The notes beneath the pieces are model-generated. The model was not told the DNA's origin, searched no databases, and was given only the letters and a program-made list of their open reading frames with translations. Position numbers and translations under genes: made by a program. From positions 12,150,540-12,214,539 of the forward strand of contig JABBOT010000001.1 in the NCBI GenBank assembly GCA_016165875.1: 64,000 nt of DNA, given 5' to 3'. Origin of the DNA: Acanthopleura granulata. Taxonomy: Eukaryota; Mollusca; Polyplacophora; Chitonida; Chitonidae. This document shows, in pieces, positions 19,974 to 63,630 of the stretch (position 1 is its first letter; each line of letters starts with the position of its first letter).

Positions 19974-20221
19974 ATTGATAGCTTGCAGAATTTCTTCAGT
20001 TTGCTAGTCTGGTTGTTTGGTTCGTTTAACACACTTTTGCCTAAGTGGAAGGTTAGTATCTGTAATGTTCATAAAGGACTGAGTCCATGTATGAACGGCA
20101 ATATTAGGATCAGTAGAGATTTTAGTAAAGGTTCAGTTCATTCCTGCCATTTAGGGGAAGGGGTTTTCTTCAGATTAATGTTGAAATCCCATAAGATCAG
20201 AATTTCTTTGCATTTGGAGGC

Positions 20222-20935: not shown

Positions 20936-21874
20936 TCAAAAGGCATGATGTACCTTTTTGGCTTGGGTGGAGTCCAACTCCCACAAACAGTTCGCAGTTG
21001 ATATGTCCATAAGGTAGAAGAAATTCCTGAACATTGTCGGTGAACTCCAGATCATAGCTACGTACAAGTTCCTACAGGTTGCCATTAATAGTATCCGAAA
21101 TTTTGTTGTCCTTATATCCATCCTAGGGCAGATACCTGACAGAAGTATGTTAACTCTGGGAGACTTATTGTGAATCACATTGAGTAAGTTGTCATATTCT
21201 TGGGTGAATTTGTTCACATATTTGTGACAATCATTTGTTCCAACTTGTATGATTATGCTGCCCAGTCTTTTAATATCCATGCTTTTTATTTTGTTAGCGA
21301 TGGGTTGAATCTGAGCACCTCTCAGCGTCTGCACTTCAGTTCCTCTTCTCAGTCCCCCAGTGTTGATTCCTTGAATTATGGAATTTCCTGTGATTAGCGT
21401 TGATGGTTTCCATTTATTTGAATCAGGATAACATCTTTCAAACTTCGAATTCATAGTACTTGCAATGTTTTCAAAGTTAACTTCTCGTTCGGATGTCATG
21501 ATAATCATTGGTATAGATTTAGTCTTTTCTTCCTCTGATCTGCTGTATACTTTTAATTTCTCAGAATTATCTGGGCGAGAAGGCACATTTACTTCTTCAT
21601 TGGTAGTTGAAGCTCTCATTTCCACTCTAAAAGGTACACCGACAACACTAGGAGGTGTAACTGCTTTGTTCCTTACAGCATCAGCATAGGATTCTCTGGT
21701 GGTGGTTGGTGTTTGAACTGATGTAGTCACCTTCTTACTGTTCCAGCTATGAATTAAATGCTTAAGACTGACATTTTGGTGAAACATTTGATGAGTCAGC
21801 ATTAAATATGTTGACAGTATCAGCTTTTGATTTTCGTCTGTCTCTTTGTAGTCAGTTGTTAAGGAGGTGTTCAT
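20936..21874 (-). pseudogene. LINE ORF1 remnant with SGNH esterase-like domain
   Basis: The remnant is 312 codons. Residues 163-167 are GNSII (SGNH block I type). Residues 211-215 are VGTND (the block with the catalytic-site Asn), after a SIIIQ strand, and an ILLSGICPR strand follows at 243-251. The expected last block is out of frame: a GLHPSQKG reading lies in another minus-strand frame, with its His codon at 20967-20969, and the residue where the catalytic Asp is expected is Val. The N-terminal 130 residues are charged and unrecognised. The product is very likely non-functional. Confidence 0.7.
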
Positions 21875-42100: not shown

Positions 42101-45100
42101 AATCTGTAACCATGTTGACTTACTATTTCCTATTATGCTTATTACACATTTTGCAATCAACGTGCAACTTGCTTTTGCATTAGCTCAAGGCTTTAGACTC
42201 TCATCTTGGCAGCTTTATCAATATTATTTGTCAAATGTAATCATGCTGGGTTTGTATCTAGCTCTTACGTGTAGTTACTGTCTTCATACGCCTTCTTTCA
42301 CATCTCCCTGCGTCTTACCAGTGTTTGTGGAATAATATTGCTTGTCAGGGAACCATTGTAAGTTGATAAATCCACTTAAAAATAAGATATCCTAGTCCCA
42401 AGTATGGAAAAAATGACACATTCCATACTTCCTTTTCGGACTTTAAATACGTGATATACTGTGTTGCTTTCCACCAAAGAAAAATTCCCACTCTTTCCAT
42501 TATAAACAGTTGCGAAATGTCCAAAACGAAATCTAAAGTATTTTTCGTGTACCAAAATTATTGACATCATAGTGTTTAATATTGTATCATATTGTATTCT
42601 GAAAGTGTCTGCTAAATTATACTTCCGGCATCTAAAATCTAACTACATTCACATTTAACAAACTTTTTCCACATTGAACACAAACATTAAAAACATTGAA
42701 CTGAATCACAAACCAACCTCTCCTCTATCATCATGTTCTTGTACAAGTATGTATACATCTTCCCACACTCTTTTTGAGACTGTCCCCTCAGTACACAACT
42801 TTTCAGCTTAACGGTTTCCCCCAAGCTCTCCTGCCCAGGAGTAAGGTGACAGAAACTGTAATGCAGATTAATGCTAATCTCTAACAGGCTGCTGTGGATC
42901 CCGAGAAGGAGGCTGCTGAGGCGGCTGCCAAAGCTGCTGCTGAGGAGGAAGAACGCAAGCGTAAACAAAAGGAGGTTGGTGCGGCGTGTGATTTGAACTG
43001 TCTGATCAGGACTGTCTGATTTTGTGTGTTTTATCCCTCATCCCTCTCAGTGAACCTCTCTTGTTCCCGGACCCAGGCTAGATTTGAACTCTGTTCCACC
43101 CCCTCCCCCCATGTGTCTATATCTCATCTTTGTGAGTCACCACATCATCCTTCACTGCCATTGCCCACTTTAGTGACGGTATATATAGTATTTCTGCATA
43201 CTCCATCCTTCCACAAGATCACCTTTTGTGTGGTAATCCACAGGTGTACTCCAGGGTGGCAATTCTTGCCAATGACTGTTTCTGCCTGGATATATTCTGC
43301 TTCCTGTGTAAAAGTATGCATGATCTTCTGTGACATGAAATGCATAATTCCATATGGAAGATTTTGTCTGTGTATTTGTGAACAAAATAATAAATTTATG
43401 AAGCATGCTGTAATGGTCGAGGGAAATCTGCATGTCTGGGGAAGACAGTTAAACCACTAGGTGAATAATGGTTAATAATAAGTATTATGTGACTATTTGG
43501 TAAAAATAATACCAATGGTCATACAGCCAGTAAGTCTCCGCCAAATTCCTTCTGCTGCCAGGGACAGATGTACCCAGTATGCATGTGGCAGTGTGTTATT
43601 TGCTCCATAAAGATGATTCATTATGGTGCCATACAGCCAAATACTTCAAATAGAACGTCATTAGAACATTCTTAATTTGTATCACTGAACACCTGTCACT
43701 TTGTTATCCTCATGTATATAGTTGTTAACAAGCTAGTGTTCAAACTGAAATCAGTGCACGTGTAAACTGTAAGATAACAAATGCAAAAGGTACATCTTGA
43801 TTTGACATGATACAACATATTGATTGGGTTGAAGATACAGTGTTCACTAAAACTGTTGAAGAAAGGAAGTCCTGATGTGATGCGCTGATATACGAAACTA
43901 AAGATTGAAAAATTCAGAGAGAAAGCCAACTTACTTAATCCACATGGAGATGATGCAAACATTTAAAACACGCCTATGAAGCATTTAAGTAAAAGCATTT
44001 CAGTGAGAGGGACTAAGACGTTTGGCTGAGTGTAAAAAAGATCTGTCATGCAGTCTGTCTGATGAGATCTGTTTATAACATGAAACATTTTTTATGCATG
44101 TAAAAGTGTGTTGTTGAAGAGACACAGAACTTGTTTCTTGCCAAAACCTTATGAAGCAGGTTAGGTGCTGTGGCAGTTCAAAAAAAGGACAAAAACCAAA
44201 TCTTGTTGTAGAACTTGGCAAAGATGTGACGAGATCTGATGGGTAACTCAGTGCCAGAAGGCAAATGATAATGGTTAAGCTGTGAGAGGACATGACACAA
44301 CTGTCTGTTATGGCTGTGTAGTGTAACGTAGTGCTGAAACAACTTCAGAAACAGTACTTGTTGCTGATTTTTTCTTTTGGTTCGCCTAACAAATGTTGAA
44401 GGCATTTGTACAATGGATTGCATTTCTTTTTCCCAATCAATTCAATCAGTAACCTTCCATCTGCATGTTTGCATGACGGCCTTGATAATGGTGCATTTAG
44501 TAATTTAGTGAGTTTATTAATAAAATGAGGCATTTGGTTAACACTGACCAAATACAGAAACATCCAACCAAACATCAGTTGTAGGAAATGCATTTTGATG
44601 TGACTCATATGTTTATGGTACGTTGGCTTTTCCACATTGTGATAACCATTGTGTTGTCGTTGTAACTGTGATGACCATTGTGTCATCATTGTGACTGTGA
44701 TGACCATTGTGTTGTCGTTGTGACTGCTGACCTAACTTACCCTTTATTACACGCCAGGCAGAAGACGCTGCTGCTCGTGAAGCAGAGGAAGCCGCGGAAG
44801 CTGAGCGCAGACGCCAGGAACAGGAAGCCGAGGCCGAGCGCAGACGAGAGCAGGAAGAAGCTCGAAGGAAAGCCGAGGAGGAGCGCCGCCAGAAAGAGGA
44901 GGAAGAACGGAAAGCACGAGAGGAGGCTGAGCGAAAGAGAAAGGTACAGACCGCATTGTCTAATTTGCTGGATCCTCAGCCCACAAGTTGTTTTGAGTTT
45001 AGTTCATTGAGCAGGTTCTGGAAAAATGTGTGCTTTTTGGCTCTGTATTAAGATAGTGCTAAGTTTATGTACAGTGTCAGGTACAAGGCAGAAACCGTGT

Positions 45101-48100: not shown

Positions 48101-51100
48101 AAAAAGTATTGACTAATTGCTCTTCACTTGTAATTTTAATTAATAGCACAAGGCTTTTTCTTCTTTTTTATGAAGGATTTTTATTTGAATTTTTCAAGTA
48201 ATGCATGTATTATTAATTTAAGACATGAGACCTCGAGTTATTTTTGATTACGATTTTTAACCCAGTTCAACTTTGTGTTGTTACTAGTTTAGTAAGTCCG
48301 AGGCTGATGATTCTGGGATGTCACATGCAGATCCTGTCAAATCTGTCACCAAGACAAAAGATAGCAACGTGAGATACATTCTGTTTCTCTCATTTCTTTT
48401 ACTTTTAATTAAAATTTCAAATGTGACTGCTGGTTTCAAGGACTTTGTGCAATGACAGTAACTACATATATATGCCCATATGGACTGGCCAGTTACAGCA
48501 TGATACATATATAGCTTGCTGGCTGTATATCTTTGGTGGAGGAAATGGAACACAGGCTAGTGTGGTTTGCCTCAATTCAGTCAAATTATGTGGTTTCTGA
48601 CCTCATTTTATATAAGGCGCATTTAACATAAGTGACAGTGTCTGCTTACATGGGGAATTGTTAAATGATAAGAGGTATGAAAGTTGGAGCAGGTTTTGAT
48701 GGACTTTGACATTTCTTCTTATCCTCGCAGAACAGTCATTTAATTGTCTGGATTAAGATGCTAAAGTTATTGTTTCCAGTACTAAAGAAAGGAGTGGAAT
48801 AGTGGATAACATGCACCAGAGAATTGCTTTATGTGTATTTCAGAAATATGGGCAGTTTTCTTACTGCCCAAATGAAGTGGTTCTACATTAAATACTTGTG
48901 TTTGTATACCACTTTTTGTGTTGGACCATTTTAATAGTCTTTGGCTAAGTGATCAACTGTTATAAATGCACTATCCAAGTAGCAGATGTATATAGCAGTG
49001 TGATGACTGGAATATTGTTTGCCTCAATGCTTTCTAGGAAGATCAGAAACCATGCTATGATGAGAATAGCAACAAGGTTGTCACCAGATGGAAGTTAGAT
49101 AATGGAGAAGCCATAAATGTAAGCATGCTGTAGAAAGACTTTTTTTCTTGAAGTTTTCAAGTTTTAATGGTAGTGAAAGTTTGAGATTTAAAGTACAGGT
49201 TTTCACTGAAGGGACTCAAAATCTGGTGAACTACAAATCTCATTGTAAAAAATCTCCCGTTATCTCTCTGGTTGCTTTGACCTTGAAATGACCTTGCCAC
49301 ATTGGCTGTCTCTTGGCCCAGCTCCAGCATGGTCTGGGAGGTTCCAGGGAAGGGTAGTCCATTGCCTTTCTCAGGTATTTAGGGCTAATGAGAATGCCTG
49401 GCCGTTCCTACACACTCTCAGCCATGTGGCAAACATCAAAATCTTGCCAGTGAGAAAAAAATTACTAATTAAAGCCGGCAAAATGTGCGTACATGTATGT
49501 GTAAGAGAGGCCAGTGCAGAAGCTACCTGGTAGAAAGGGCTGAAGCAGTGCCATTAATAGATGTTGTTTTTCTTGTTGCCGGGTTCTCCCCTGGAAGATT
49601 TTTGTGTTGTTAGAATAATACTGTGTGTGATATCGTGTTACCAGCTCGCCTTCAGAGAATTCCTCTAGAATGCACACGTTCGTGGTTAGCATGCTTTACC
49701 TACATGTATAGCGATAAAGTTTGAAAAGCCAAACTGAGCAGTATTTGCAGGTGTTGGAGTGTTTGTAGTCAAACCATAATTACTTCAAAACTCTTTGCTG
49801 TCAGTTTTAATGAAGTAGAGGTATGTTACTGAAGATATGAGGTCTGATATGTTCAAAGTATGTTGCCAATCTCGACACAATCCATATGGCTTTATTTAAC
49901 AGCAAGATTCTGAGCTTATCAAGAACACATCACCATCATTGTCATCATCATCATTGTCATCAAGATTTGGTAAAACCGAGACGCCTTCAGCTGTTATCAC
50001 AAAGATCACTACATTATCCACATCAGTGACACCAAGGGAAGATAACTCTAAACCTTGGGCTGCTCCACTAACTGGAAGGACAAAGGACAAAAAGGCTCTG
50101 TTTGAATCTGCTCAAAGAACAAGCGAGCCTGCTCGACAAAAGCCGATAGAGTTGAGGTTGAACTCTGCCAATACTGTCATGCAGAAGTGGAAAGCACGTG
50201 AAGAACATAGCGTAAGCACACCAGTTCACATGCACGCCTGCTTTCATGCACACCTATTCCAAAATGGAAGGAAAAATAACTCAAGTTGCTGTTGTTTCTG
50301 TAATTGATATCTGTAAAATCTTGCCCTTAAATAATGTGTTTGATTATTACTGCATTTATGTACGTAAGTAAATGTTTCACCTACACATACATGTATGGCA
50401 TGATTACATGCAGATAATGGACATTTGACAAACTTTTAACGGCTAAATTATGGAAAGCAGTGCAGACTATGGACTGTGTAAGAGAAATTTACATCCATTA
50501 CTTACGATGTATCATTATCGTCATCCCCATATCAGTGACCTGGTATCACGTACCTGCATGTATATGCATATGTATACATGTATATATATATATCATCGTG
50601 GTGCTGATGGTTGGCTATAATGGTGTGTGTTTAGGGCGTGGTCTCCGGCTCTATCCCTCATCCTCAGCCCATCTCCACCAGACAGCGGTCAGAGAGTGGC
50701 ACAGACGTAAGCCTGGTCATACAGTACCCTAGTCTCATTTTTGCTTAATTTCAGCTTTCTCTGCTCTAGACATTGTCAGTTGTGGCACTCCTGCCAGTAA
50801 AGGCCATAAGTTGTACTTATATGTTCACTGGTTTACTCTACATAGGGCAGCTTAATATAGCCAGTAATACGATATGGTAAGGGCTAAGGAAGACTGAATT
50901 TGATAGTTGCTGGTGTCAAAGATTTGACAAATTTCACCTCATCTAAATGTTTTTAGAGAACAAATATATGGATTTCACATTAGACTTCAGATATGTCAAG
51001 ACCATTTTCCTCTTGGCTACACCATAATCTGTAATCTCTTATGGTATAATGCCCTTATTCAAGGAAATTATCTCCCCATGGCAGGACCCACTACTGATTG

Positions 51101-54100
51101 TGTCTTTGGCTTATGTATATTATATACTTTATGTGTTTCCTCTTCTTGGTGAAAGGGTTAGATCATCTCCATTTATGTTATTGCTTTGGTCATGGGTTAA
51201 TATCCCTTAATCACCTTCTGTAAACGTTTTCTGATCTCAGTCTTGCTTTCTGCATCAGTGGACAGTTTGTCACGAAGCTGTACCTCTTGCTGCCGTCATG
51301 ATTCTCCGTGTTTCACCTGTGCGACATTCTGCGACATGCACCTACACGAGCCGGTTGTGAGGTGATTTTATGTGCCGGTCTGCTGCATGGTTTGCTGATC
51401 ATGCACAGGTCTTGTAAACTGTGCTTGTACAAACCTTCCACCTACAAAGCCGCTTCTAACATCTTTCAGATTATGGACTGATTTATGAACAGGTATATGA
51501 CTGGATTTGCAAAAAATCAGTTTTAATATGAAGGAATTTGTGCTTGTTGACAGCTGCATTGGCTAAGGAAAAGCTCGTAGATGGGTATGAGAACAAACCT
51601 GTGTGCATAGCTGGTCTCCAGTCAGTATGGTTTCTGCTTCTGTCTTGTGTCCATACTACATCCTACTAACTGTAGTCAAAAGGTCTGTGTAAACTGGAGT
51701 TGAACAAGCTTGATTTTATGTGGTTTGTGCTGTGTGTTCACCTTGAGTGCAGCAGTGAATGTGTATGTAAACTCAGGAACCTCTGTCCCTGACTGCCTTT
51801 GTGTTCACCTAACTGTGGAAACAGTGTAATAAACTAGCCACACTAATATGTTAGTGTACAGCTAACAGTATTGATGTGAAATTATCCATATATGTGTATA
51901 AATGTGTAATAATAAAAATAATAATAATTGATTCTTCTTGGTATTGTAATAATATATATGTTATTATATTCATACAAAGGAAATTGATTTGAATGTTGAA
52001 AATTATTTCTTTTAATCGTTTGTTGTGTATGCGCTGAACTGTGGACCTTTAATGTATTTTTTTTTGGTTTTGTTGTGGATTTAATTCTGTAGGCTTGCTG
52101 TGATGTTTCATTTCAGTTTTATATTTAGATATGTTTGTGTTGTTTCTATTTTTTGCATGTGCATGATTGTGTGTGTAAAGGGAGATAATGCACCTTCAGA
52201 ACGCCGTCTTTCCTCCTCCTCGTCAATATCATCATCTTCCTCATCAACATGGCGAGAGAGGGAAGCCCTCCGTTACAAGGTAAGACCAACTCTTTTACAC
52301 CTGCCCTTAGCAGCTCCAAGGTAAGACAGTTATGTTACTTTTCAAGGCTCCCCAAACTTTTGTAGAGATATTTAAGTAATTTAATGCAGATCTTGTACTT
52401 TGATGTTAAATAAGATATACATTAGTTTTACTAAAAAGTAGTGTTTGAAATTTATTGAGTGAGTAGTAATATCTTCCTAACAGTTATTTCCTCTGTTGAG
52501 GTTGCATGTTTACTTTGCTTACATTGAACTCTACACAACTGTTGCAAAATGTTTGTCTTTGAAAAATCTCTGGTATTCAAAAGAATTCTTGGAATATGAC
52601 AGTTGTTGAAGTTCTGGAAATGTATACCTGCAGTGGCCTACAACATGAATGTACATATTGTGATAAACTTGAGTATACCAGACTAGAGTTTTCCTGTATT
52701 CCAAACTACAGAAACTCTTTCATGACTCATGTCATCGATTAGATCCTCTAAATTCTGTGGATTACAACTTACAGTGTCATGTTAGAAGACCCTTCCAAAA
52801 ATGTCATTCTTATTTACTTGTTGTTAATTACAAAATAACCAGCCAGATTCTGGTTGACTACCTGGCATGCACTGAGAGTTTGTGTACCTGTCCTGTTTTC
52901 ATGCCTTGCTGTTTTCACTTTTGTTTAGGAGGAAGAGGAGAAGGAAGAACAAGAGCGGCTAGAACGCGAGCGCAAGAAGGAGGAGGTAAGTACGCTCTTT
53001 GTCCCCTTGTCTCGTTCCTTTTTGTTCCAGTGTGCAGAACCATTCTGCATGCTATGATGTTGGATTGCATTTGTCACAAGTTGTCCTTTATGCGAATTGG
53101 TCTGGTGTTTTATTCCAATTTTTTCTGTCACATCTCTTCATCAATCACCATGTTGCTACAGACCCACTTTGTCCCATCTTGCTGTCGTTTACACGTCTTT
53201 TTTTTTTTTTTTTTTTTGCAATTTTTGGCGGATTTGTTCATAATCTAGAGTTGTTAGTTTGTTGGAGGAGAGGCTGAGAAGACTACAAGCTTTCTCTGAG
53301 CTAGCTATCTGTACCACAGCCCTAGTTACGTACACGGCCTTTCTTCCTGGGGGAGTTTATATGTCCATCGCACGCTAGCTAGCTACATAGCAACTCGCAA
53401 CCACATTATCTCTAGTTGTCTCCCTTTGCTCGTGCGTCTGTAATGCGGTTATCACGAAGTGCGGGCAGGCTTTATGCGTAGCTGTACGTAACCCTATCTA
53501 GAGGGTGTGCTCATGCAGTGGCTGCTGCTGCTGGTAGGCTAGTAACAAAGAGCCAGTTAGGGGAGCCAAGTAAAGAGATGAGCACACAGGCCTAAGTCAT
53601 CTTTCCCCCTTTCTAGTCTCTGTATTTGGCATGCTATGCAATTCTGCTAACTGCAGGCTGCGAGGCGAAAGGAAGAGGAAGAACGAAAGAAGAAAGGCAA
53701 GCGGAAGGGTCTCGGTGGCTTATCACCGGAGAAGAAGAAACTGCTCAAGGTAGGGCAGGAGCAGAGATTTCTCCGCTGAAGAAAAAAAAAAAATTAACCC
53801 GTTCAAGGACTTGAAGTTCATGCAAAAGCGGCAATTCAACTTCCTAAGCGCATTTTGCATGAGACAATGTTAACACGGGAAACGTTTCTTCAAATTTCTC
53901 TTTTTTTCATTCTGTATTTTTTATTCTGTCTACTTTTCTTCTTGTACTAAATTGTACATAACCATTTCATCATTTACAATGCGAGTCCGCTTAAAGCTCC
54001 GACGGCCATGTTAATATGCGGGTCTGACGTCTCTCCCTCCACTGGTACGTTGTCATTGCTAACCTGGCTACTGCGTTCATTTTTATATGGCAACCTAACA

Positions 54101-57100
54101 CAGTTTGTAAGGTTTTTTACACTGTTGAAACAAATTGAACAGAAACCATCCAAAACGGAATTCATTGTTTGAAACTTGTGCAAATCATCAAGTTTGGTGT
54201 AGTAGCAACAGTCAGTTGGTGGCAGTCGTGGCGGCAGCGGGCGTTGATATTACATCATTGCGGATTGATGATTTCCTCTGTTTAAACACCAGCCCAATGG
54301 CATGAGCAGGAACTGTTTTAACGAGTCCACCTTTGGTACAGTAGAGAGAGATTTTCACTATATTTGTTTTTTTTTTCACATTGAAATGATGGATAGATGT
54401 TATGGACCCATTTTTTGCTTGATTGTGTAGAAAACTGCTGAACTCTTTGGCTGCATCATCAAAATAACCAGATCATTGAATCCTAGATCATGGCTTTTGC
54501 TCTAGTTCATTGCATGGGTCCCTCAGTGTTATAAACCTGGTGACGCCACAGGCTCTGGACTTCTATCTTCCAACACCTAAATGGTCAACACAAGTCCAAT
54601 AATTTTGAACATCAGATGTAAATTATTTCTGAAAAGGAAAAAAAAAAATCGATGATTTTAAAGCAGCAGTCATCAGTTTTCTTCATAGCAGTTGGCTCTT
54701 TTCTTTTCCTAGTTGAACCCCTTCCCGCATGCCCCTGTAGAATGTGCCAGCCATGCCAGGACATCTAGTCAGCGTTTTGTTGTCTGTCTTTCGAGAATTT
54801 TTCTCAGTATTAGGACAGACATGTAAACAGAAATTGTCCAATGAACCATGTTTGTCTAAATTATAAATTTTCCTTCCTCAGATGTCCTTTTGTCCTTGGG
54901 CACAATGTGGAATGTTTGCTTGTGTTTTGAGCGATTTGGTGTGTTTTATGTTGGCATGATGACTGCATGGTTTGTCTTGTCCACCATGTTGTAGAATGAT
55001 GATGTTAAAGAGACATTGGAAGACTTGAGTGAGGAAATTGAAGAGATGCGTCGACGGAGAAAGGAAATTCTTAGTCAGCGAGTTCAGCCATTGCCAGAGG
55101 ACCTTGAAAACATGACGAATGGTAATCATGTCATACAAGCTAGCTAGAGTGGTATGAACTCAAATATCAACAATACTGTTCCTTTTGTCAGATTTATTGT
55201 AAACCATAAATCAAGTCAGAATTCATGAATCTTACTTATATCAGAACTTTGCTGGATAGTTCAATACATGGCCTTTCCATAACTCTTTCCTAGCAACCTT
55301 GAACAAGTCATAGTGTTTCTTGTACACGCTTTCCTGTTGACTCTGAAAAAAGGATTGTTATTTAAGGATAAATCACAAGGAAATTTCTGTAGTAGGTGTT
55401 AAATACATGTAGCTTACTATGGAGTTTTGTGGAAGACCTTAAAATTTTTTCAACCAATACAAAAGCATTCACAAATGTTTGGCAGTAATGAGAGAACTGG
55501 ATTAAAACCTGCCTTCCACAGTAGGTTATGGTATTTAAGCTGGGAAATTACTTATCTTGGTGTAGTTGTAGATGTGTAGATTGAACCTGTAAATGTTAAT
55601 GTCCTAGTACAGTATGGGTTCATTGTTAAGATACACATTAATCATGGTGTAATAGATATATGTATATATTTAAATTATGACAGGAGTATTAAACATTCAC
55701 AACACCATTGATAAACAACCAGTTAAAAGTTCTTTTATTGAAACCTTTGTCCCTTTGTCAACAGTGAAGATGCACTGACAGTGTGTGATTTGTTGTAACG
55801 ATCTCTTGAATTCAATGAAAACAGGACAAGTTGTATTTCATGAGCTAAGTTCACACTATGTTATAAATTGAATTGATAAACCAGAACAAAATAGATGTCA
55901 GATGAAATAACGTGTGTTATAGGTTTGTAGAGAACTAAGAGAAGGCACTCTGATAGCCCCTGACAAGAATGATGATGATGCTGTTGCAGCCATTTTAACA
56001 TTCATACAAGACCTCTTGTCTTTCACCATTATTTCATGCATATCTATTCATCATGTCTGAGAAGGTTCTTCAGTGACTTGTAGTTGTTTCTGCTTCTTAC
56101 TGTGGTCAATGATGTTGATAGTGGTCAAACTTGTGTAGTTAGACTTTGGAGAGGGTAGATGTCAGTGTTGGGGTTTGTCAGTGGTCATTTGTCATTGTTG
56201 GGGTTTGTTCAGGTTATTGTCAAATCCACGGGATCAGTATTTGGACAAATGTTGGGTCGGGCTCAACTGACTCAGATCAGCTATTGGGATTGATAACACA
56301 ACCCCATTACATGCAGCTAAGGTTGTGGTGTTTATTTGTGATTTCATAGCTCATATTGTCATGGGTATTTTTGATGCCGTAATGGTTCCAACTGTGTCAG
56401 GGATGGCATAGCCAATGTTTTCCTGGATATTTGTGATGCCATGATATAGCCTTGGGCCTGTGTCAGGGCATAGTCAGGTTTGGTTACCTATAGCTCGTGT
56501 TGTCATGGAAATTTGTGAAGTTATAGCTGATGTCATGGAAATTTGTGTTGTCAAGGTCATGTTGAGATACCTGATATAGTCATGGAGTGGCTCGTGATGG
56601 CTGATGTTTGTGAAAGTATTTGTGTTGCCAAAGTCGTGTTCAAATATGGCCGAAAAATCTTAGCTGTGATGATTTTGATATTTGGACTTCCACAGCCAGG
56701 AACGCCTCCATAGTAAAATAGTAATATCACTTTCAGTGTATTTGACCGCTAAAATGAAAAACTTTGCCACTTATTTTATCTTAGACAAATAGGAATGTTT
56801 TGATCCCAGTTAGTAGCCTTAGTGGTATCTAGATAATGCAGTGCAGAACTTTATTAGTCCATTTCAAGCTGTTTTTTTCATCCTAGCATGTGCACGCCAT
56901 TGGTTACACTCCAGTGGACAGATTGATACACATGGTACACGTAGGAGGTCACTGGACTTCATTGCTTCCTTATATGGAAATAGGTCACAACTTCAGCATT
57001 TGAAAAACCACATCAGTCCAGATACTTAAGGAATACATTTAAATTTGGATAACAATCTGCATTTGATGCTTTTCTTGATTCAAGCATCAGGTACAGATTT

Positions 57101-60100
57101 TATCGTGAATAATACAGCCATAGGCAGTGACTTTCAGTAGAGAGGGTAGATGTCGTGAACTTACATTGTGATCAGAACTTATGGGCAACTCGTGCTATGG
57201 ATTTCCAGAAACAGGCGAGTATTGTCAGTAAACAAACAGCAATCCATCAACCAGTTGTTCAGGCTAGTTGAGAAAGCCCATGCTGTCATGAATATCTGTG
57301 ATGCTTTGTCCATTCTGGAAAGCCTGATGTTTGAAAAAAAAAACATGTGTTCTATCACTGTCACTTAGGGTTGCCCTTTATTGTGGTCATTGTAATCAGT
57401 TTGTGTTTTCATAGCCCTGTATTGAGTCGAGGAGAGGTTAATGGTTAGCTTTCGTGAAAGCCTCATTGCCAAAGAGGAGAAGTTGAGGATTGGCTTTTGT
57501 GAAGCCCCATTGCCAAAGAGGAGAGGTTGAGGATTGGCTTTTGTGAAAGCCTCATTGCCAGGGTGGACTGTTTAGGATTTATAGTGTCATGAGATAACTG
57601 ATTTTGTGGTTGATAACCAGATCGAGGTTATATTATGGATACCTTGAGAGGGCCTCTGTGACAAGGATTATGGACAGCTCAGTATTTTCTGCTATCAAAA
57701 ACACATTGGTTTGTTACATATGTCAAGAAGCCTTATATTTTATCATCTCTTGACACAGCAAACATGGGATGGTTTTTAATATTTTTTGGCAATCAAGATT
57801 GTGAGGAGTTTTAGCTACAACGTGAAAATTGTTTTGAGAGCATCATTTAGTCACAAATTTTCATTTATGTCACAGAAGAGGGGTTTAAATTGGCTACCTA
57901 GAAAAAAAGGCATATGTTTATCATTGAGAAATAATGAGATAATCAAATAGGATAAGGCAATAATTCAAAGCAAAGAAGAACATTAAGAAAAGGAAATGAA
58001 TTATGGTGAACATTGAAATCAGTTTAAAGCAGAATGAATTATAAGGACATCAGGACCTGAGGGTTTAAATTTTGACATGGAATAATTGGTTCTATTGCTG
58101 GTGGAAACTGCTATAGATAGTTTTATTTGTGCTACACTCTCATAGAAGTGTGTGTTATATATTTTCTTAGTGAGAGGTGTTTCTGTGTTAACCAGTGTGG
58201 AATGTTCTAGATATTAACCTTATTTTGTTGTGTGGAATTGTGCAGTATGACTTCGTCATGGAAAAGATTTGTTCAAAACTCAAATTCTCAGGAATTTGTG
58301 TCTTGAATATTTTTTGCTTTTTTCTGTGTCTTTTTAGACTTAAAGTGATGTTTTCAAGATAAATTTTTCTGTAATATTTCAGATAATAATTATTTGTTTA
58401 CATATTTTATGTAACCCTTACTACTGTATATCTAGTATAAAACTGTTATTTGTTACATTAATACTGGACATTTTTACTTTACATACACCTTTTGCCATTG
58501 TGAATTGGTTGTTCAACGGTTCACTGTTGAGAAAGATCTTTGAAGACAAACACAAGTGTTCTTTAAGCAGAATGTCCATTGTCTTTTGGTGTGCTTGTCA
58601 GTGTTCATGTTCATCTTCCAGTCCAGTTGGTCAGCTTTCCAGCGCTTTCTGTTTCTAGAAATTAATCATGCAAAAAGCGGCTGAAGATCTGAGAAATGAA
58701 GCCATTAAAAAGGCTGAAGAGAGAGAAAAATACATCAATGAGAGGGTGGAGGCCATTAACACGGAGGGGCTGCGGCAAGGTAGGCAGTGTGGGGCAGCAT
58801 GGACGTAGCGTGGCAGCTCCCCCTGGTGGCTGAGCGTTGGGTAGCCTCCTGCTCACAGTAGAAATTCCCAGGATACATTGTGATGACATTCAATCTTTGA
58901 TCTTCTGTTGTCATTTTCCTTGCATGTCATTTTGTAGTTTTTATTGAGTTTGCTTTTAGGTATGTTCCATATGGCAGTATTTTGGAGTATTTTTGTGTTT
59001 TCATTTTGGTTTTCATCTATTACAATTCACAGCAGTTCTGTGCTTATTTTGGTTTGTCGTCTTGCGTTTTTCCTAACCATCGTTGATTTGTAGACTTGTT
59101 TGGTATTTTACCCTCTCCTCATGTTATTTGATTGTATTACCAGTTGTATTGCCAGTTGCAACTTCTTCCCACGCACCATATGGCTGAACTATCCATGACA
59201 GCCTTGTGTATGAGAAATTTGATTTTAGCATGACCCCAACCCCAGGATTTGTCAGCAATTGCTATGTGATTGTGAGCAAAACAGTGGTTGTTGTTGTTAT
59301 TTCCCTCGTTACAGTTGTGTCAGTTCTTTCTGAGCCGCACCGGTTTTACACCAGCTTCTTCCACAGCACAGTTTTCTCACAGTTAATCATCACAAGCACT
59401 TGAGGTGTGGCTTGGCACAGTGCTCCCTGTGGTGCAAAATGCCTAATGAACATGTTACGATGACATAGAAATCCTGAAAACGTTGCCTAGGACCCTATTG
59501 CATTATTGGCACTGGATTCATGCACAGTCACAAACTCATGATGTTATGAAAGAATATGTTCAAAAGAGGTGTTTTTTGAAAGAATAACTTTCCTTTTCTG
59601 TAAATCAACCTACACTTGTTACACTCCTGATATTCAAATAAGATGTTGGTTGAAAGGATTTCGGATTTCTATAAACCAACTTAAACCTGTTACTCTGCTA
59701 TATTCAAACAAGAAATTGGTCAAAAGAAGGACATTTGATTTCTGTAAACCAATTCTGTACACTTGTTACACTCTTATATGCAAGTAACATGTTGACAGGA
59801 AGGAGTACTGTTGATTTCTGTAAACCAACTTACTCTTCTTACACTTAATATTCATATAAGTTGTTTTTCTGGAAGAAGGATTATATTGATTTCTGTAAAC
59901 CAACTTACACTTTTATAATTTTGAGCTTATTTAATGACTTAATATTGTTGATTGTTTAACACATATTATGTATGCAGGCCCACATTCAAGTGCTGAACTT
60001 TGCTGTATGTACCTAGTTTAATAGCAAAAAAAGATGAGGTGTCACTGAATGTTGACCATTGGAGGCATTTCCAATGTCAGACTATAGCACTAAATGTTTA

Positions 60101-63100
60101 CTTTCCATAGTGTGATATTTAAGACACTGTGGGATAAATTTTGCGCGCGGGCTTTAGAATGACCCAGAATGCAAGCATTTAGGGCCTTGTCAGTGTAGAG
60201 GTTACACCTTCTGAAATGGTTCTCTTGAAGTGAATGAAATTGCAATTGAAGAACTGTGTTCTTTTTGCATTGCAATGGTTCTCTGCACGCAACACTTAAT
60301 GTCTAGTTCACCTTCGTGCCTGGGCAGAAGGCAGTGTGTTTCTCAGGGCTTGATTTGATAAGCTGTTGTTAGTGGATTTAGGATTGTCTGAAATGTGCCC
60401 TGCAGAGTGGTAGAAGTTTCAAGTTCTGCATTGATAGCTGGATGTGCATTGCACAAAAAAATCCTTTGTAATTTGTATCTCTGAGAACAATAGATTTAGC
60501 ACAGAAGTTTATGGTTAGGCATCTTTTCGTTTTAAAATTGCGATTGCTGATTTATGGATAGAATATTAGGTAGGAGGATATAGGTTACTAACTGCAGATC
60601 TTTGGTTTTTCCAAGCTGGAAGAATTTATTTGCCTAATATTCGGGAAGTGCATGTTAATAGAGTGTCTGCCATATCTAAGGAGAAATTTTTATATTGATG
60701 ATTAAGGTTAAAGAATTATCGTTAATGCTTTTATGACTATGTAGAAAGCTATGGGCATCAGGAAATGTCAGGGTTGTACAATACTACCTGGCGATTAGGT
60801 GAATCCATGTGACTTTTTCAGCACAACTGTTCTTGTTGGTCCAAATGATTAAGTAGTACACCCCTGACGTTTTGATTTTGCACATAAACTACCACGTACA
60901 TTTACTTGGCACAATTTTTTCATTTAGATAACAAAGATAAATTCAACATTTGACGTGATCTTGTGTGTTATATATGTTGTTGACATATTTTATGTACCTT
61001 TATGCTCTATTCCATAACAGCCCTGGCTGGTGGCCAAAACATGCCCAAAGGTACATTGGTTACTGTGAGAAAACCAGCTTTACATGTATATGTCTGTGTT
61101 GTGAGTGAAAACCCTGCCTGAATGTCTGTCTGTCTGTCCAGTTGTCTCTTTGTGCGCTTTTGATAAATTGATAACGGGTAACTTGATGGCAGTCAGTGTT
61201 GTAATGTTAAACCTCACAGAACGATACTAAATTGAGTATGATAAAATGATACAATGGACAAGGAAATGAATGTTTTCAAGTTTTCCATGGATGAGCCAGA
61301 AGATGTTCAGACAAATAGAGCACTTGTGTTGGATCGATTTTATATTAGTACAGGTGCAGTGTAGTCACTGTGACCAGAGAAATGACTGTTACTGTGTGTT
61401 AGTGTGTAGCCGTGTACCAGTGTAGCCTGCAGTGGGATTTTCTGACATAACCATTAGAGATGTGGTGAGAAATGTGAAACCAGAGGGAAGACATAAGGCT
61501 TGTACATGTGTGTTGTAAGGATTGGGGAATAGATTTACTCAATACTCATACCAACAACCTCAAACCAAGACCAAGGCTTAGATATCTGAGAGCCTGTAAT
61601 GTGTGAAAATGCATGGAATTTGAGATGTAGATATTAAACTTGTTATTTGTCTGTGGAGAACCTAGTAGTTCTATCTATACATTTGATAGTCAAATGTAGC
61701 TGGAAATACCTCATACAAGCATAGGCCAAATGATGACCTGGCACATGGCAACACCTACTGATGTCACATGGTATCTTGCCTCACGTGCACAGGGGTATAT
61801 ACTACACCATATTTATGCAAAGCATGCTGTCTTGAAATCACTCACTTCGTGCACCCTGCATCATCACCAGGGTACAAAACAGATGTCATGTGCTTTAGGA
61901 CAGCATAAAATTAGTGTCACCAGCTTAATATAAAAATCAAATTTTTTATTGTAGTACCCAGGTATATTGTATGTCAAGGTTATTTATGACAGACTGGAGA
62001 TGAGGATATGACAGTCACCATATTTTGACATTCTTTTGCAATCAGACATCAGTGACAAATGTAAGAAGAGTTAGTGGGGGCCTCCGTGGCTCAGTTGGTT
62101 AGTGCACTAGAGCTGCATAATAACTCAGAAGCCTCCCACCAATGTGGTCGCTGTAAGTTAAGTTCAGCTCTTGCTGGTTTCCCCTCCGGCTGTAGGTGGA
62201 AAGGTCTGCCAGCAACCTGTGGATGTTCGTGGGTTTCCCCTGGGCTCTGCCTGGTTTCCTCCCACCATAATGCTGGCCGCCATTACTGAAGTTCTTGAGT
62301 ACAGCATAAAAAAAACAATCAAATAAATAAATGAATAAATTAGAAGAGTTAGTTGTGTGGACCAATAGTTTGTTTTATGAGCTGAGCACCCTAAGTCCCC
62401 AGCAGTGGTGCACCATGATAGAGCAGTGCTGTATTGAGCCTGACATGGCCTGCATGGCTGGTGTTCACCATGATATAGGAAAACATCAGTATTGCTTCAG
62501 AAGCTGGAGTTTATCTAACACTAGAAAGCAACTGTGGATATCTTGTAATCCCTGTTTTCTCCCTCCTTGTGCCCATGAACAGCTGAACTGAACAAATTAG
62601 TGAAGGACCTTCACCAGAAGGTGGCCAACCTGGAGGAAGAAGTGTACGACTGGGAAGTTAAGATTCGCAAACAAGACTATGAGGTGAGTTCCTGCTGTGT
62701 GTTCTCCAACCAGCAATTTCCTCAGATTTGCCCCTGACATCAGCAGTTTGTACAAATTCCAATGAAGAATACCTGGCATAAGTTCTTTAACCAACAGTTA
62801 GTACAAATTCTAATAATGAGTGCCTGGCATAAGTTCTCCAGCCAACATTCTGTATAGATTTCTGTAAGTTGTCCAATCAGCAGTTTGTACAAAATACATG
62901 CTCAAAGTGTTATGAACTTTGGATTTTACCATGTCTTTCTTTTTTCTACTTGCAGATCAACGAATTAACTCTTAAAGTAAATGATATGAAAGGAAAATTG
63001 TAAGTTGACTGAATTTTTTTTCTTTAATTACAACAAATTTTACATGTATTTCATACTGTTTTCAAATGTGAAGCTGGTGGTTTAATAATCTGATTAAGAT

Positions 63101-63630
63101 GTTAATTCTTAGATTGCCATACAACAGCAGGGGTATCGTGGTAATATGATCTCCTTGTACAGCAGCAGTGGTATTGTGGTAATATCTTCTCATACAGCAG
63201 CAGTGGTATTGTGGTAATATCTTCTCATACAGCAGCAGTGGTATTGTGGTAATATCTTCTCATACAGCAGCAGGGGTATTGTTGTATTATGATCTCCAGC
63301 TACAGTGTGTCATCATAGATCACAAACTCCCGAGTTGTTGTGCTATGAGATGTGCTGTAGTCTACCTAAGGGAGCACATGAACAGGGCTTCAGTTTACAT
63401 GCTATTTCTGACAGAAACCATCATGTTCATATTAGCCATGCCCAAGCTGGCCATAGTGAACTTGGACTTTGGTGGAACTGTATTTATTATAAAACACAAT
63501 TTTTGGGGGAGGATTTTGATTTGCTTTTATATGTAGTCGTTACCAGTCATGGCTATGGTATTTGTGTAACATTGTTTCTATTTTACAGTGTTAAGCCAGT
63601 TCTCAGGAAAGTTTCCAAGACAGAGGCCAA
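30099..63630 (+). CDS. TnI: troponin I gene, multi-exon, 3' end outside window (overall span)
   Basis: Troponin I is the inhibitory subunit of the thin-filament troponin complex. It binds troponin C, troponin T and actin-tropomyosin in striated muscle. The call rests on the core exons: GLGGLSPEKKKLLK, then KLIMQKAAEDL, then the troponin-T-binding helix with EEEVYDWEVKIRKQDYE, then INELTLKVNDMKGK and FVKPVLRKVSKTEA. This is the order and spacing known for invertebrate TnI. The first exon (MSLEERREARRRRRQ) matches the molluscan TnI style of a long charged N-terminal extension. Skipping the phase-0 block 45733-52279, the exons join in one open frame of 372 codons to the last donor seen; including the block adds 755. 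Family members normally continue another 50 or so residues after the inhibitory region, so the terminal exon is beyond 64000. The 5' UTR is also incomplete, because exon 30099 starts at an acceptor site. Confidence 0.9.
31205..31262 (-). mobile_element. SINE 3' tail fragment, minus orientation
   Basis: The plus strand shows TATTTATTTATTTACTTGAT followed by TGTTGTTTAATACCATACTG, the reverse complement of the SINE 3' end. The flanking body is too diverged to call. Confidence 0.5.
32673..33178. mobile_element. 506-bp foldback (MITE-like) element in TnI intron
   Basis: The left arm (TTTAAAAGAAACAGCCCACA ... ATTATCTGAAAGGCAG ... TCTTCATTATTTTTTGACA ... ATTGAGGTGCTGTGATGGA ... AAGCACAGTCATGTCACAG) is matched in order by the reverse complement of the right arm. 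Both arms extend about 220 bases around a central loop near 32890-32960. Divergence between the arms shows age. It has no coding capacity, consistent with a non-autonomous DNA transposon. Confidence 0.8.
33334..33411 (+). CDS. TnI: TnI N-terminal extension exon 2
   Basis: The exon is 78 bases with acceptor tgtttag and donor gtatgt, entering and leaving in phase 2. It reads QEEPPDDFTQRLQQRRRERE followed by ERLKK. It is highly charged and predicted helical. The frame continues directly from the start exon and into the exon at 34044. Confidence 0.82.
33412..34043 (+). other. TnI intron 2
   Basis: Bounded by gtatgt and gatacag. Nothing recognised inside. Confidence 0.75.
34044..34130 (+). CDS. 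TnI: TnI N-terminal extension exon 3, with a GC donor
   Basis: The acceptor is gatacag. The exon reads AADTNSIEDDDEMERKRRER followed by REAREARLR. Open coding sequence of the expected Arg/Glu type runs to AAG|gcaagg, a GC-AG type donor at 34131, leaving phase 2, which is exactly what the exon at 38418 needs. A conventional donor (gtaagc at 34088) lies inside the exon and would leave phase 1. If no donor is used the frame closes at a TGA at 34155-34157. Confidence 0.75.
35080..35780. repeat. minisatellite, unit 38 bp
   Basis: About 18 copies of ACCAAAATACCAAGAACAAA / CCAATACAGTGAACCTGT. Units of 38 bases measured between adjacent copies. The minus strand is open for long stretches (up to 168 codons), giving repetitive WYFGTGSLYW-type readings that are artefacts of the repeat. 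Confidence 0.9.
38275..38312 (+). CDS. possible alternative TnI exon (phase 1 in, phase 0 out)
   Basis: This 38-base block has a strong acceptor (ttctgttgcag) and donor (CAG|gtagag). Entered in phase 1 it reads IKEATGIDSGVQ and exits in phase 0, which fits the next exon at 40109. The only phase-1 donor I see upstream is the internal gtaagc at 34088. That donor plus this exon would replace the 3' half of exon 34044 and the whole of exon 38418 while keeping frame. The sequence is not recognised, and there is no proof that it is transcribed. Confidence 0.35.
38418..38511 (+). CDS. TnI: TnI N-terminal extension exon 4
   Basis: The acceptor is gaccatcag and the donor gtaatg. The exon is 94 bases, entered in phase 2 and left in phase 0. 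It reads ATAEGGDAEEETTSRRSRRN then RQAEDDDAPQE, alternating acidic and basic clusters. The frame is consistent only with the GC donor at 34131. Two 25-bp copies of a GGCTGGTAACCATGGAA-containing sequence follow immediately in the intron. Confidence 0.8.
38512..40108 (+). other. TnI intron 4
   Basis: It starts with two 25-bp repeats just after the donor, followed by a 40-bp-unit minisatellite. Confidence 0.75.
39040..39620. repeat. degenerate minisatellite, unit about 40 bp
   Basis: Repeated GGGTTTAGTGAAGGTCAAAG / TGCTGTT(C/G)(C/T)TAGGATGCT units, strongly diverged, in the intron between exons 38418 and 40109. Confidence 0.8.
40109..40186 (+). CDS. TnI: TnI N-terminal extension exon 5
   Basis: The acceptor is gctcttccag. 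The 78-base, phase 0/0 exon reads ESSARSRRRRAQQEEEEEAP then APAAEE. The inferred donor (GAG|gtggag) is weak. If it is missed, the frame runs on for 36 codons plus a stop ending at 40297. Joining to 42888 gives the expected Ala/Glu/Lys-rich continuation, which supports the donor despite its poor consensus. Confidence 0.75.
40187..42887 (+). other. TnI intron 5
   Basis: It has the weak donor gtggag and contains the diverged SINE at 41346. No other feature seen. Confidence 0.65.
41346..41594 (+). mobile_element. older SINE copy, same family
   Basis: It shares with the copy at 62076 the CCAATGTGGTCGCTGT block, a GAGTTCAAGTCC B-box, GGAAGGTCTGC and TGGGTTTC in the body, and the AAGTGAAATATGCTTAAGTA...AAATAAATAAAT tail. 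It is clearly more diverged and no target-site duplication was found. It lies in the intron between TnI exons 40109 and 42888. Confidence 0.75.
42888..42974 (+). CDS. TnI: TnI N-terminal extension exon 6 (Ala/Glu/Lys helix)
   Basis: The acceptor is ctctaacag and the donor gttggt. The exon is 87 bases, phase 0/0. It reads AAVDPEKEAAEAAAKAAAEE followed by EERKRKQKE, a low-complexity sequence likely to form a stable helix. Confidence 0.8.
42975..44757 (+). other. TnI intron 6
   Basis: Several overlapping minus-strand frames (43696-44707) have no recognisable domain. The 29-bp triplet repeat lies at its 3' end. Confidence 0.7.
44638..44724. repeat. 29-bp tandem repeat, three copies, just before a TnI acceptor
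   Basis: Three units of TGTGATGACCATTGTGTTGT / CGTTGTGAC end 33 bases before the start of exon 44758, so they occupy the branch-point neighbourhood. Confidence 0.85.
44758..44943 (+). CDS. TnI: TnI N-terminal extension exon 7 (long Arg/Glu helix)
   Basis: The acceptor is ttacacgccag and the donor gtacag. The exon is 186 bases, phase 0/0, 62 residues. It is almost entirely E, R, A, K and Q (for example EAERRRQEQEAEAERRREQE), with i to i+4 salt-bridge spacing typical of single alpha-helices or coiled coil. It is the junction exon: its phase-0 end can join either the caldesmon-like block (45733) or directly the TnI core (52929). Confidence 0.85.
44944..45732 (+). other. TnI intron 7, before the giant exon
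   Basis: Bounded by gtacag and ccctag. No exon that fits the frame was found inside (see rejected 45569-45617). Confidence 0.7.
45733..47214 (+). CDS. giant 494-codon caldesmon-like exon of the TnI gene
   Basis: A single exon of 1482 bases, phase 0/0, with acceptor cttaccctag and donor AAG|gtatgt. Three zones are visible. Codons 1 to about 150 are Arg/Ser-rich with scattered Trp (MRGWQLKRQERQ, VVQKWLNVE, RAQRWNEAE). Codons about 150-310 are charged and helix-prone (RERRRAERLKKWRGEGEVEK). Codons about 315-455 are a repetitive LEQEHLEEVRLEQM-type helix built on Leu, Glu, Gln and Arg. The tail is acidic (SDDDDREQ). I recognise no catalytic or globular domain. By composition it resembles the helical middle of caldesmon or trichohyalin, but homology is not shown. 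There is no start codon of its own at the exon head, so it depends on upstream exons. It is one of eight phase-0 exons that can be skipped together. Confidence 0.8.
46690..47085 (+). repeat. coding repeat: Leu/Glu/Gln single-helix repeat in giant exon
   Basis: Short degenerate coding repeats of the form LEQE(H/R)LE(E/Q), about 5-11 residues per unit, run for roughly 130 residues. The DNA shows repeated TTGGAACA and GAAGAAG words, so the tract probably grew by slippage or unequal exchange. The expected structure is a long extended single alpha-helix. Confidence 0.75.
47382..47444 (+). CDS. caldesmon-like block exon 2 (21 aa)
   Basis: The acceptor is gctcattctag and the donor CAG|gtaaac. The exon is 63 bases, phase 0/0. 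It reads AVSINSKVGDHKAKFESRNT then Q. It is basic and Ser-rich, without a recognised motif. It follows the giant exon after a 167-base intron. Confidence 0.7.
47919..47996 (+). CDS. caldesmon-like block exon 3 (26 aa)
   Basis: The acceptor is ggcattttacag and the donor AAA|gtaagc. The exon is 78 bases, phase 0/0. It reads EDKPVLKPERRIHVYGAPNL then KSLQEK. Function unknown. Confidence 0.7.
48288..48368 (+). CDS. caldesmon-like block exon 4 (27 aa)
   Basis: The acceptor is gttgttactag and the donor AAC|gtgaga. The exon is 81 bases, phase 0/0. It reads FSKSEADDSGMSHADPVKSV then TKTKDSN, a disordered Ser/Asp/Lys linker. Confidence 0.65.
49038..49118 (+). CDS. caldesmon-like block exon 5 (27 aa)
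   Basis: The acceptor is gctttctag and the donor AAT|gtaagc. The exon is 81 bases, phase 0/0. It reads EDQKPCYDENSNKVVTRWKL then DNGEAIN. It again contains a basic-Trp motif (VTRWKL), as in the giant exon. Confidence 0.68.
49903..50211 (+). CDS. caldesmon-like block exon 6 (103 aa, Ser-rich)
   Basis: The acceptor is ctttatttaacag and the donor AGC|gtaagc. The exon is 309 bases, phase 0/0. It begins with a Ser run (SPSLSSSSLSSRFGK), then KPWAAPLTGRTKDKKALFES, and ends NTVMQKWKAREEHS. The VMQKW motif repeats the VVQKW motif of the giant exon. The sequence is probably disordered and possibly phosphorylated. No domain recognised. Confidence 0.75.
50635..50706 (+). CDS. caldesmon-like block exon 7 (24 aa)
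   Basis: The acceptor is ggtgtgtgtttag and the donor GAC|gtaagc. The exon is 72 bases, phase 0/0. It reads GVVSGSIPHPQPISTRQRSE then SGTD, a Pro/Ser linker. The acceptor tract is G/T-rich rather than pyrimidine-rich, so inclusion may be regulated. Confidence 0.6.
52181..52279 (+). CDS. caldesmon-like block exon 8 (33 aa, Ser run)
   Basis: The acceptor is gtgtgtgtaaag and the donor AAG|gtaaga. The exon is 99 bases, phase 0/0. It reads GDNAPSERRLSSSSSISSSS then SSTWREREALRYK. A poly-Ser tract encoded by mixed TCN/AGC codons is followed by a basic-Trp helix that leads into the Glu/Arg core exon at 52929. The acceptor has a poor pyrimidine tract. Confidence 0.65.
52929..52985 (+). CDS. TnI: TnI exon: Glu/Arg hinge into the core
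   Basis: The acceptor is ttttgtttag and the donor GAG|gtaagt. The exon is 57 bases, phase 0/0. It reads EEEEKEEQERLERERKKEE. It can follow either exon 44758-44943 (compact form) or exon 52181-52279 (large form) without frame change. Confidence 0.82.
53198..53217. repeat. poly-T tract
   Basis: A run of about 20 T after exon 52929-52985 in the intron. Confidence 0.9.
53657..53749 (+). CDS. TnI: TnI core exon: start of helix 1 (GLGGLSPEKKKLLK)
   Basis: The acceptor is ctaactgcag and the donor AAG|gtaggg. The exon is 93 bases, phase 0/0. It reads AARRKEEEERKKKGKRKGLG then GLSPEKKKLLK. The GLSPEKKKLLK block corresponds to the GFMTPERKKKLRLLL block of insect TnI, the beginning of the helix that binds the C-lobe of troponin C and packs against troponin T. 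This is one of the clearest identifiers of the family in the window. Confidence 0.92.
54995..55121 (+). CDS. TnI: alternative TnI helix-1 exon, mutually exclusive with 58659-58779
   Basis: The acceptor is accatgttgtag and the donor AATG|gtaatc. The exon is 127 bases, phase 0 in and phase 1 out. It encodes NDDVKETLEDLSEEIEEMRR, then RRKEILSQRVQPLPEDLENM, then TN. It shares with exon 58659-58779 the entry and exit phases, nearly the same length (42 against 40 codons) and aligned residues: E-D-L, a following E..I, then K..I..(E/Q)RV. It replaces the basic KLIMQKAA start with acidic NDDVKETL, so troponin C contact would differ. Using both exons, or neither, creates an early stop. If the donor is not used the frame ends at TAG 55145-55147. 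Confidence 0.7.
57430..57565. repeat. tandem repeat, three copies of about 46-50 bp
   Basis: GAGGAGAGGTTGAGGATTGG / CTTTTGTGAAAGCCTCATTG / CCAAA recurs three times between the two mutually exclusive helix-1 exons. Confidence 0.8.
58659..58779 (+). CDS. TnI: TnI core exon: canonical helix 1
   Basis: The acceptor is ctgtttctag and the donor CAAG|gtaggc. The exon is 121 bases, phase 0 in and phase 1 out. It reads KLIMQKAAEDLRNEAIKKAE, then EREKYINERVEAINTEGLRQ. It matches the troponin C/T-binding first helix of TnI, and KYINERVEAINTEGL parallels the vertebrate RYLAERIPTLQTRGL segment. It follows exon 53657-53749 directly in the canonical form, giving KKKLLK|KLIMQK. Confidence 0.92.
59575..59915. 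repeat. tandem repeat, five copies of about 75 bp
   Basis: A GATTTCTGTAAACCAACTTA core recurs near 59596, 59667, 59737, 59812 and 59887, with similar flanks (TTACACTCTTATATTCAA). Confidence 0.8.
61021..61050 (+). CDS. TnI: predicted 30-nt cassette micro-exon in the TnI helix linker
   Basis: Acceptor ctattccataacag, 30 bases, donor AAAG|gtacat. It is phase 1 in and phase 1 out, so inclusion inserts ten residues (ALAGGQNMPK) between ...NTEGLRQ and (A)ELNKLVKD with no frame change. The site is the flexible turn between helix 1 and the coiled-coil helix 2, a position where other invertebrate TnIs vary in length. The sequence alone cannot show that it is spliced in. Confidence 0.5.
62076..62341 (+). 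mobile_element. full-length tRNA-headed SINE with target-site duplication
   Basis: The 5' part is tRNA-like (A-box TGGCTCAGTTGG near 62087). The central body has GGTCTGCCAGCAACCTGTGG and the 3' end has CCCACCATAATGCTGGCCGC, followed by a GTACAGCATAAAA/CAATCAAATAAATAAAT tail. It is flanked by perfect 12-bp direct repeats AGAAGAGTTAGT at 62064-62075 and 62342-62353. It resembles the V-SINE type reported as widespread in molluscs (RUDI-like); the family name is from memory and not verified. Confidence 0.85.
62583..62683 (+). CDS. TnI: TnI core exon: helix 2, troponin T coiled coil
   Basis: The acceptor is gcccatgaacag and the donor GAG|gtgagt. The exon is 101 bases, phase 1 in and phase 0 out. 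It reads (A)ELNKLVKDLHQKVANLEEEV, then YDWEVKIRKQDYE. The heptad leucines and YDWE..IRKQD(Y/F)E are diagnostic of the TnI helix that pairs with troponin T in the IT arm. A recent SINE sits only about 230 bases upstream. Confidence 0.93.
62700..62890. repeat. degenerate tandem repeat, unit about 50-55 bp
   Basis: AGCAGTTTGTACAAATTCCA / ATGAAGAATACCTGGCATAA / GTTCTTTAACCA and diverged copies fill most of the short intron between exons 62583 and 62956. Confidence 0.65.
62956..62999 (+). CDS. TnI: TnI core exon: end of helix 2 and start of inhibitory region
   Basis: The acceptor is ctacttgcag and the donor AATT|gtaagt. The exon is 44 bases, phase 0 in and phase 2 out. It reads INELTLKVNDMKGK plus two bases that complete Phe with the next exon, giving the conserved VNDMKGKFVKP junction. 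Confidence 0.92.
63000..63588 (+). other. TnI intron before inhibitory-peptide exon
   Basis: Bounded by gtaagt and ttttacag. Mostly the 35-bp tandem repeat; the open frames at 63246-63634 are chance overlaps. Confidence 0.75.
63121..63300. repeat. 35-bp tandem repeat, about five copies
   Basis: CATACAGCAGCAGTGGTATT / GTGGTAATATCTTCT; adjacent cores start at 63158 and 63193. It lies in the intron before the inhibitory-peptide exon. Confidence 0.88.
63589..63630 (+). CDS. TnI: TnI core exon: inhibitory peptide
   Basis: The acceptor is ctattttacag and the donor CCAA|gtaagt. The exon is 42 bases, phase 2 in and phase 2 out. It reads (F)VKPVLRKVSKTEA. This basic segment corresponds to the actin/troponin C-competing inhibitory peptide (vertebrate GKFKRPTLRRV type). 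If the donor is not cleaved the frame reads AAG TAA, stopping at once. The switch peptide and C-terminal mobile domain are expected in exons beyond 64000. Confidence 0.9.

Follow-up and report, generated by a model that had tools for sequence, protein, structure and literature searches.

Two putative alternative exons for helix 1 in a chiton troponin I gene, one of them without the troponin C anchor

Introduction

In Drosophila the troponin I (TnI) gene wupA carries the mutually exclusive exons 6a-d, flanked by exon 5 (residue 116) and exon 7 (residue 188), which are constitutive (PMC8011728), and exons 10A/10B of Drosophila troponin T (TnT) are mutually exclusive and selected by muscle type (PMC13322953). 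Here we analyse a 64-kb window of the chiton Acanthopleura granulata, meaning the whole stretch of DNA under study in whose numbering positions are given, which at its right end carries on the + strand a TnI gene with two exons, 54995-55121 and 58659-58779, that we propose to be alternatives for helix 1 of the protein. The chiton gene would resemble wupA in being a single TnI gene whose isoforms arise by the choice of one mutually exclusive exon in the middle of the protein. Residue 116 of fly TnI lies in the helix that binds troponin C (TnC), and fly exon 6 would thus be downstream of this helix. The chiton pair, in contrast to this position of wupA exon 6, which is taken from residue numbers, includes the TnC-binding helix. 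The fly TnT exons 10A/10B are also exclusive exons in a troponin subunit, but in another subunit than chiton TnI.

In molluscan muscle calcium acts both through myosin and through the thin filament, although some still doubt how much troponin contributes in smooth muscles, and for scallop TnC one calcium-binding domain has been reported and not two (PMC12040844). Activation in molluscs is believed to involve the structural site of TnI for TnC (PMC5963113). A description of an alternative helix-1 exon in lophotrochozoan TnI was not found in the open PMC library, whose coverage leaves out most of the older mollusc troponin papers, so that an earlier one may exist. Exon choice in TnI is known in flies, and its position at helix 1 together with the loss of the anchor look like new features. 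If the proposal is true, the same gene yields a muscle brake that calcium switches and another that is less coupled to calcium, splicing of TnI acts at a different point of the protein than in flies, and a TnI with the inhibitory region and without the helix-1 dock makes the role of troponin in mollusc muscle testable by ordinary methods.

Results

The interpretation that we favour, and hold to be probable from the sequence comparisons below, is a molluscan TnI gene in which helix 1 and its linker to helix 2 are encoded by either of two alternative exons, of which the upstream one would give a form less coupled to TnC. The exons on which the analysis is based are the following (P-numbers denote retrieved proteins).

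52929..52985, + strand: constitutive TnI exon, phase 0 to 0, EEEEKEEQERLERERKKEE (splice sites, open frame)
53657..53749, + strand: constitutive TnI exon, phase 0 to 0, with the C-terminal end GLGGLSPEKKKLLK, which is the first part of the TnC-binding helix (90% identity to P0003 in tblastn with mollusc TnIs; splice sites)
54995..55121, + strand: candidate alternative exon for helix 1, phase 0 to 1, with an acidic sequence and without the TnC anchor (held-out profile, Pfam gain, splice sites)
58659..58779, + strand: usual helix-1 exon, phase 0 to 1, with the anchor KLIMQKAA (tblastn and match to 3tz1_B)
62583..62683, + strand: constitutive exon, helix 2, entry phase 1 (tblastn, frame)
62956..62999, + strand: constitutive exon, end of helix 2 (tblastn, frame)
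63589..63630, + strand: constitutive exon, inhibitory region VKPVLRKVSKTEA, donor GCCAA/gtaagt (tblastn, sequence)

In tblastn the usual exon is 65-75% identical to four of the query TnIs. We place the end of the last exon at 63630, since the stop that is reached sits just past its donor, and the next TnI exon, LAKIEKKEAKDFRTNLKSTGHNKYALEEEKE, lies about 2 kb downstream, beyond the window (L003).

Kinship of the upstream exon to helix 1

It is homology, and not the reading frame, that marks 54995-55121 as a predicted TnI exon. The retrieved TnIs that match a motif and the canonical exon of the window were combined into a profile of helix 1, after removal of the rows with introns or truncations (a list of eight), while the alternative exon and P0017, a TnI described below, were held out. 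Among 2,822 stop-to-stop open reading frames (ORFs) of at least 20 amino acids on both strands of 83.6 kb (the window and about 19.7 kb downstream), the ORF of the alternative exon, 54995-55144, ranks second with an E value of 8.7e-4, behind ORF 58659-58805 (E 6.6e-21), whose exon is part of the profile. The match covers positions 9-39 of the alternative exon, that is, the part past the TnC anchor. No third helix-1 copy scores better than E 0.2 among these ORFs. The + strand of the same 83.6 kb holds 799 open segments of 100-160 nucleotides that are bounded by AG and GT and run from phase 0 to phase 1; four of them reach E < 0.5 and all four are located at the two helix-1 exons, the alternative exon being present twice, with the acceptor before 54995 (16.5 bits) and with an internal in-frame one before 55013 (17.4 bits). 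The latter also preserves the frame, and the bases 5' of it are purine-rich; the anchor is lost with either acceptor.

The Pfam Troponin family (PF00992), which spans TnI and TnT, gives the same indication. The protein with the alternative exon scores 92.9 bits and the protein without it 75.2, a gain of about 18 bits, while shuffled versions of the exon (results from 7 of 8 shuffles) give 72.6-77.2 bits, a change of -2.6 to +2.0. The canonical form scores 113.6 bits, the cut-off being 26.2. The best solved TnI relative is 1j1d_C, with E values of 2.7e-17 for the canonical and 2.5e-15 for the alternative form, and the best TnT structure matches are weaker (6.5e-7 and 2.6e-6, respectively). By these comparisons both forms are troponin I, the alternative one by the rest of its sequence despite having no anchor.

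Frame logic of the exon pair

The upstream exon is 127 nucleotides long (42 codons and one nucleotide) and the downstream one 121 (40 codons and one nucleotide), both entering in phase 0 and leaving in phase 1; in each case the preceding in-frame stop TAG holds the acceptor AG, and a GT follows directly on the 3' side. When the exons from 52929 on are joined, the usual exon alone gives an open frame of 153 amino acids and the alternative exon alone one of 155. Since each exon is 1 mod 3 in length, two or none of them break the frame: with both the product ends in EINHAKSG at the TGA 58682-58684, and with neither it ends in LLKLN at the TGA 62589-62591. Coordinates, lengths, phases and frame failures had all been given in the initial annotation and were reproduced from the sequence. 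From them it had concluded that the pair is mutually exclusive; the matching phases and the non-coding nature of the other combinations are consistent with this, and the frame does not by itself establish exclusion in cells. Frame arithmetic as a proof of the exon was rejected, since 61 open AG..GT segments of the same size and phase class occur in the two introns, 22 in intron 53750-58658 (the alternative exon included) and 39 in 58780-62582. The hexamer TGCATG, presumably an Rbfox-type site, is found at 54964-54969, 25 bases 5' of the alternative exon, and we make no claim from it; it is commoner than expected throughout the window (91 occurrences against 63.2).

What the proposed swap would change

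The alternative exon codes for most of helix 1 and for the helix 1-2 linker. The canonical segment GLSPEKKKLLK/KLIMQKAAEDLRN shares 22 of its 24 residues with chain B of PDB entry 3tz1 (labelled Troponin I), which we take to be the scallop peptide bound to the C-lobe of TnC. The constitutive part of this peptide comprises 11 residues, 10 of them identical to 3tz1_B; at the 13 positions encoded by the exchanged exon, 12 are identical in the canonical form, 3 in the alternative form and 1 in P0017. A search with the alternative sequence also recovers 3tz1_B, with an E value of 0.098, and this match comes largely from the constitutive half.

The comparison was extended to 109 retrieved proteins, 77 of which passed a motif filter on both ends of the region. 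In 70 of the 77 the region is 61-63 residues long, and all 70 have [LI][IL][MLV] at positions 2-4, where the alternative exon has DDV; the net charge of the first 14 residues is -6 in the alternative exon versus -2 to +2 in these 70 proteins. The remaining seven are P0017 and six proteins of odd length, five of which (P0036, P0040, P0044, P0049 and P0055) have the LIM triplet, and in the sixth, P0048, the start of the region is absent. The 32 filter failures, judged by reading, comprise 20 proteins with the anchor, 5 that start inside it, 4 without the region and 3 in which an intron is entered after LLK or MLK, and an alternative-type stretch was seen in none of them. Helix 1 begins with the hydrophobic TnC anchor in the canonical form and lacks it in the alternative one, and the replacement of the basic KLIMQKAA by the acidic NDDVKETL, as first noted in the initial annotation, is supported (3/13 versus 12/13 anchor identities, charge -6).

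A second anchor-less troponin I

Only P0017, among the 109 proteins, has a comparable acidic stretch without the anchor at that junction. This protein (source 'lgn') has 163 amino acids and is encoded on a contig of 920 nucleotides, which would most simply be a cDNA because so short a contig covers several exons. It reads KGKRKGLGGLSPDKKKKLK, DSPVEYDTEEEEEKWRVVSERLTPLPDDFDFLST, AELKKLCKQLHDKL, and its acidic stretch (charge -7) sits between the same two constitutive segments as in the chiton. As in the chiton alternative form, the constitutive KGKRKGLGGLSPDKKKKLK is followed by an acidic stretch with no LIM-type anchor and then by AEL and helix 2. Both have V at position 4 and a linker of 12 residues (PLPxD) before AEL, where most rows have 10; the 12-residue linker also occurs in P0076, an ordinary anchor-bearing TnI. 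P0017 aligns with the alternative exon at z 6.3 (0 of 2,000 shuffles equal or better) versus z 2.3 with the canonical exon (71 of 2,000). AlphaFold2 models keep helix 1 both in P0017 (residues 22-50) and in the canonical P0064 (20-56), the predicted local distance difference test score for residues 21-40 being about 73 and 70 in P0017 and 91 and 94 in P0064; the predicted template modelling scores are low (0.40 and 0.43), so that the models give weak support.

Discussion

We propose that a productive mRNA keeps exactly one helix-1 exon, since an early stop arises with both and with neither; mRNAs of these two kinds would not code for the protein and would probably be degraded. Ordinary TnI would come from the downstream exon 58659-58779. 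With the upstream exon the helix could still extend into the arm that TnI shares with TnT, and NDDVKETL in place of KLIMQKAA would leave helix 1 with a weak grip, or none, on the C-lobe of TnC. Since such a product would lack the anchor and retain the inhibitory region, it is expected to act as a thin-filament inhibitor with reduced calcium coupling, less readily released by calcium. The choice of exon would presumably be made per muscle. A bolder version of this proposal, which we regard as doubtful, is that lophotrochozoans derive from one TnI gene a second TnI in which the helix-1 TnC dock has been replaced on purpose, inhibiting and calcium-uncoupled, and that splicing switches between thin-filament-linked and myosin-linked regulation in different muscles, for example tonic clamping muscles.

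Several observations weigh against two functional alternatives. Annotated isoforms seen from other molluscs (e.g. Haliotis X12 and Physella X10) have the usual exon, and a simple count of consensus matches rates the splice sites of the alternative exon as intermediate: of the 799 mechanical segments, 9, both helix-1 exons among them, have sites at least as good. In direct comparison the two exons give a local score of 39 (z 2.6), equalled or exceeded by 33 of 2,000 shuffles, and a BLASTP E value of 0.064. The stretch in P0017 has 34 residues versus 42 in the chiton exon; P0017 scores higher with some ordinary exons, such as that of the nematode P0087 (z 10.0), and the chiton alternative exon reaches z 7.5 with the ordinary P0074, above its z 6.3 with P0017. 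Because each scores higher with ordinary TnI exons, the two anchor-less exons need not be orthologues, and they may be independent or may both be relics of an older form. The shared origin of the two chiton exons, which the initial annotation had aligned, is supported through the family profile and Pfam and is marginal in the direct comparison; both look like TnI helix-1 exons that have diverged for long or fast.

The same weak resemblance, together with splice sites no better than those of 8 other mechanical segments, would suit a decaying duplicate of helix 1, open yet skipped or used as noise, in which the loss of the anchor is itself decay. We consider this unlikely, as 42 stop-free codons, both splice dinucleotides and the exact phase have been retained, the helix-1 profile still matches over positions 9-39, and P0017 is an anchor-less TnI protein that exists elsewhere. 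With 61 open segments of comparable length in the two introns, a chance segment with splice-like ends, resembling helix 1 by composition, is also conceivable, but the rank of second among 2,822 ORFs, far above the other mechanical segments, and the Pfam gain missing from the 7 composition-matched shuffles make this very improbable. A more serious contender, to which we give an appreciable though not an even chance, is that the exon is used and its isoform still binds TnC by means of the constitutive GLGGLSPEKKKLLK half of the helix and of TnC-binding regions further on, in which case the exchange tunes the coupling and does not abolish it. The 11 of 24 peptide residues that are constitutive, 10 of which match 3tz1_B, and the helix 1 predicted in the anchor-less P0017 are in line with this; it is harder to reconcile with the three anchor positions, which hold hydrophobic residues in all 70 rows and D, D and V in the alternative exon.

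Gene number and neighbouring features

One TnI locus was found in the assembly of 606.5 Mb and 87 contigs by a search with the canonical protein and a Pfam search, the best candidates being scored. The canonical protein found three exons of the TnI locus and one other place in its own genome; among these best candidates a second TnI gene was rejected, since we take this place to be troponin T. A TnT-like exon (L001, G000:C1:26707583-26707813, minus strand) contains ILSQRIPVLQ, which resembles the ILSQRVQPLP encoded by the alternative exon of TnI; helix 1 of TnI and helix 1 of TnT are related. No relatives were found in viral and prokaryote contigs, and there was no Rfam match. Three troponins, P0005, P0073 and P0091, are filed under Enterococcus faecium and Clostridium perfringens, and are evidently animal sequences contaminating bacterial records.

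Elsewhere in the window, ORFs on the minus strand at 18858-21874 resemble, by eye, pieces of a non-LTR (long terminal repeat) retrotransposon; in Pfam one is without a match and another has weak GDSL-lipase matches below the cut-off.

The TnI gene itself probably extends upstream through the following exon.

44758..44943, + strand: charged exon of phase 0 to 0, probably an N-terminal extension within the same gene (splice sites; tblastn matches weak, of low complexity)

More candidate N-terminal TnI exons are seen at 38418-38511 (TTSRRSRR), 40109-40186 (RSRRRRAQQEEEEE) and 42888-42974 (AAEEEERKRK), and by eye they resemble the N-terminal sequence of P0100, a TnI from the annelid Owenia. Between exons 44758-44943 and 52929-52985 a series of candidate exons on the same strand, apparently all of phase 0 to 0, occupies 45733-52280, with 45733-47214 (494 codons) and, by eye, members near 47382, 47920, 48289, 49041, 49903, 50636 and 52180. 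The two longest contain no Pfam domain, and the series may represent either a very large, optional N-terminal section of the TnI gene or a second gene.

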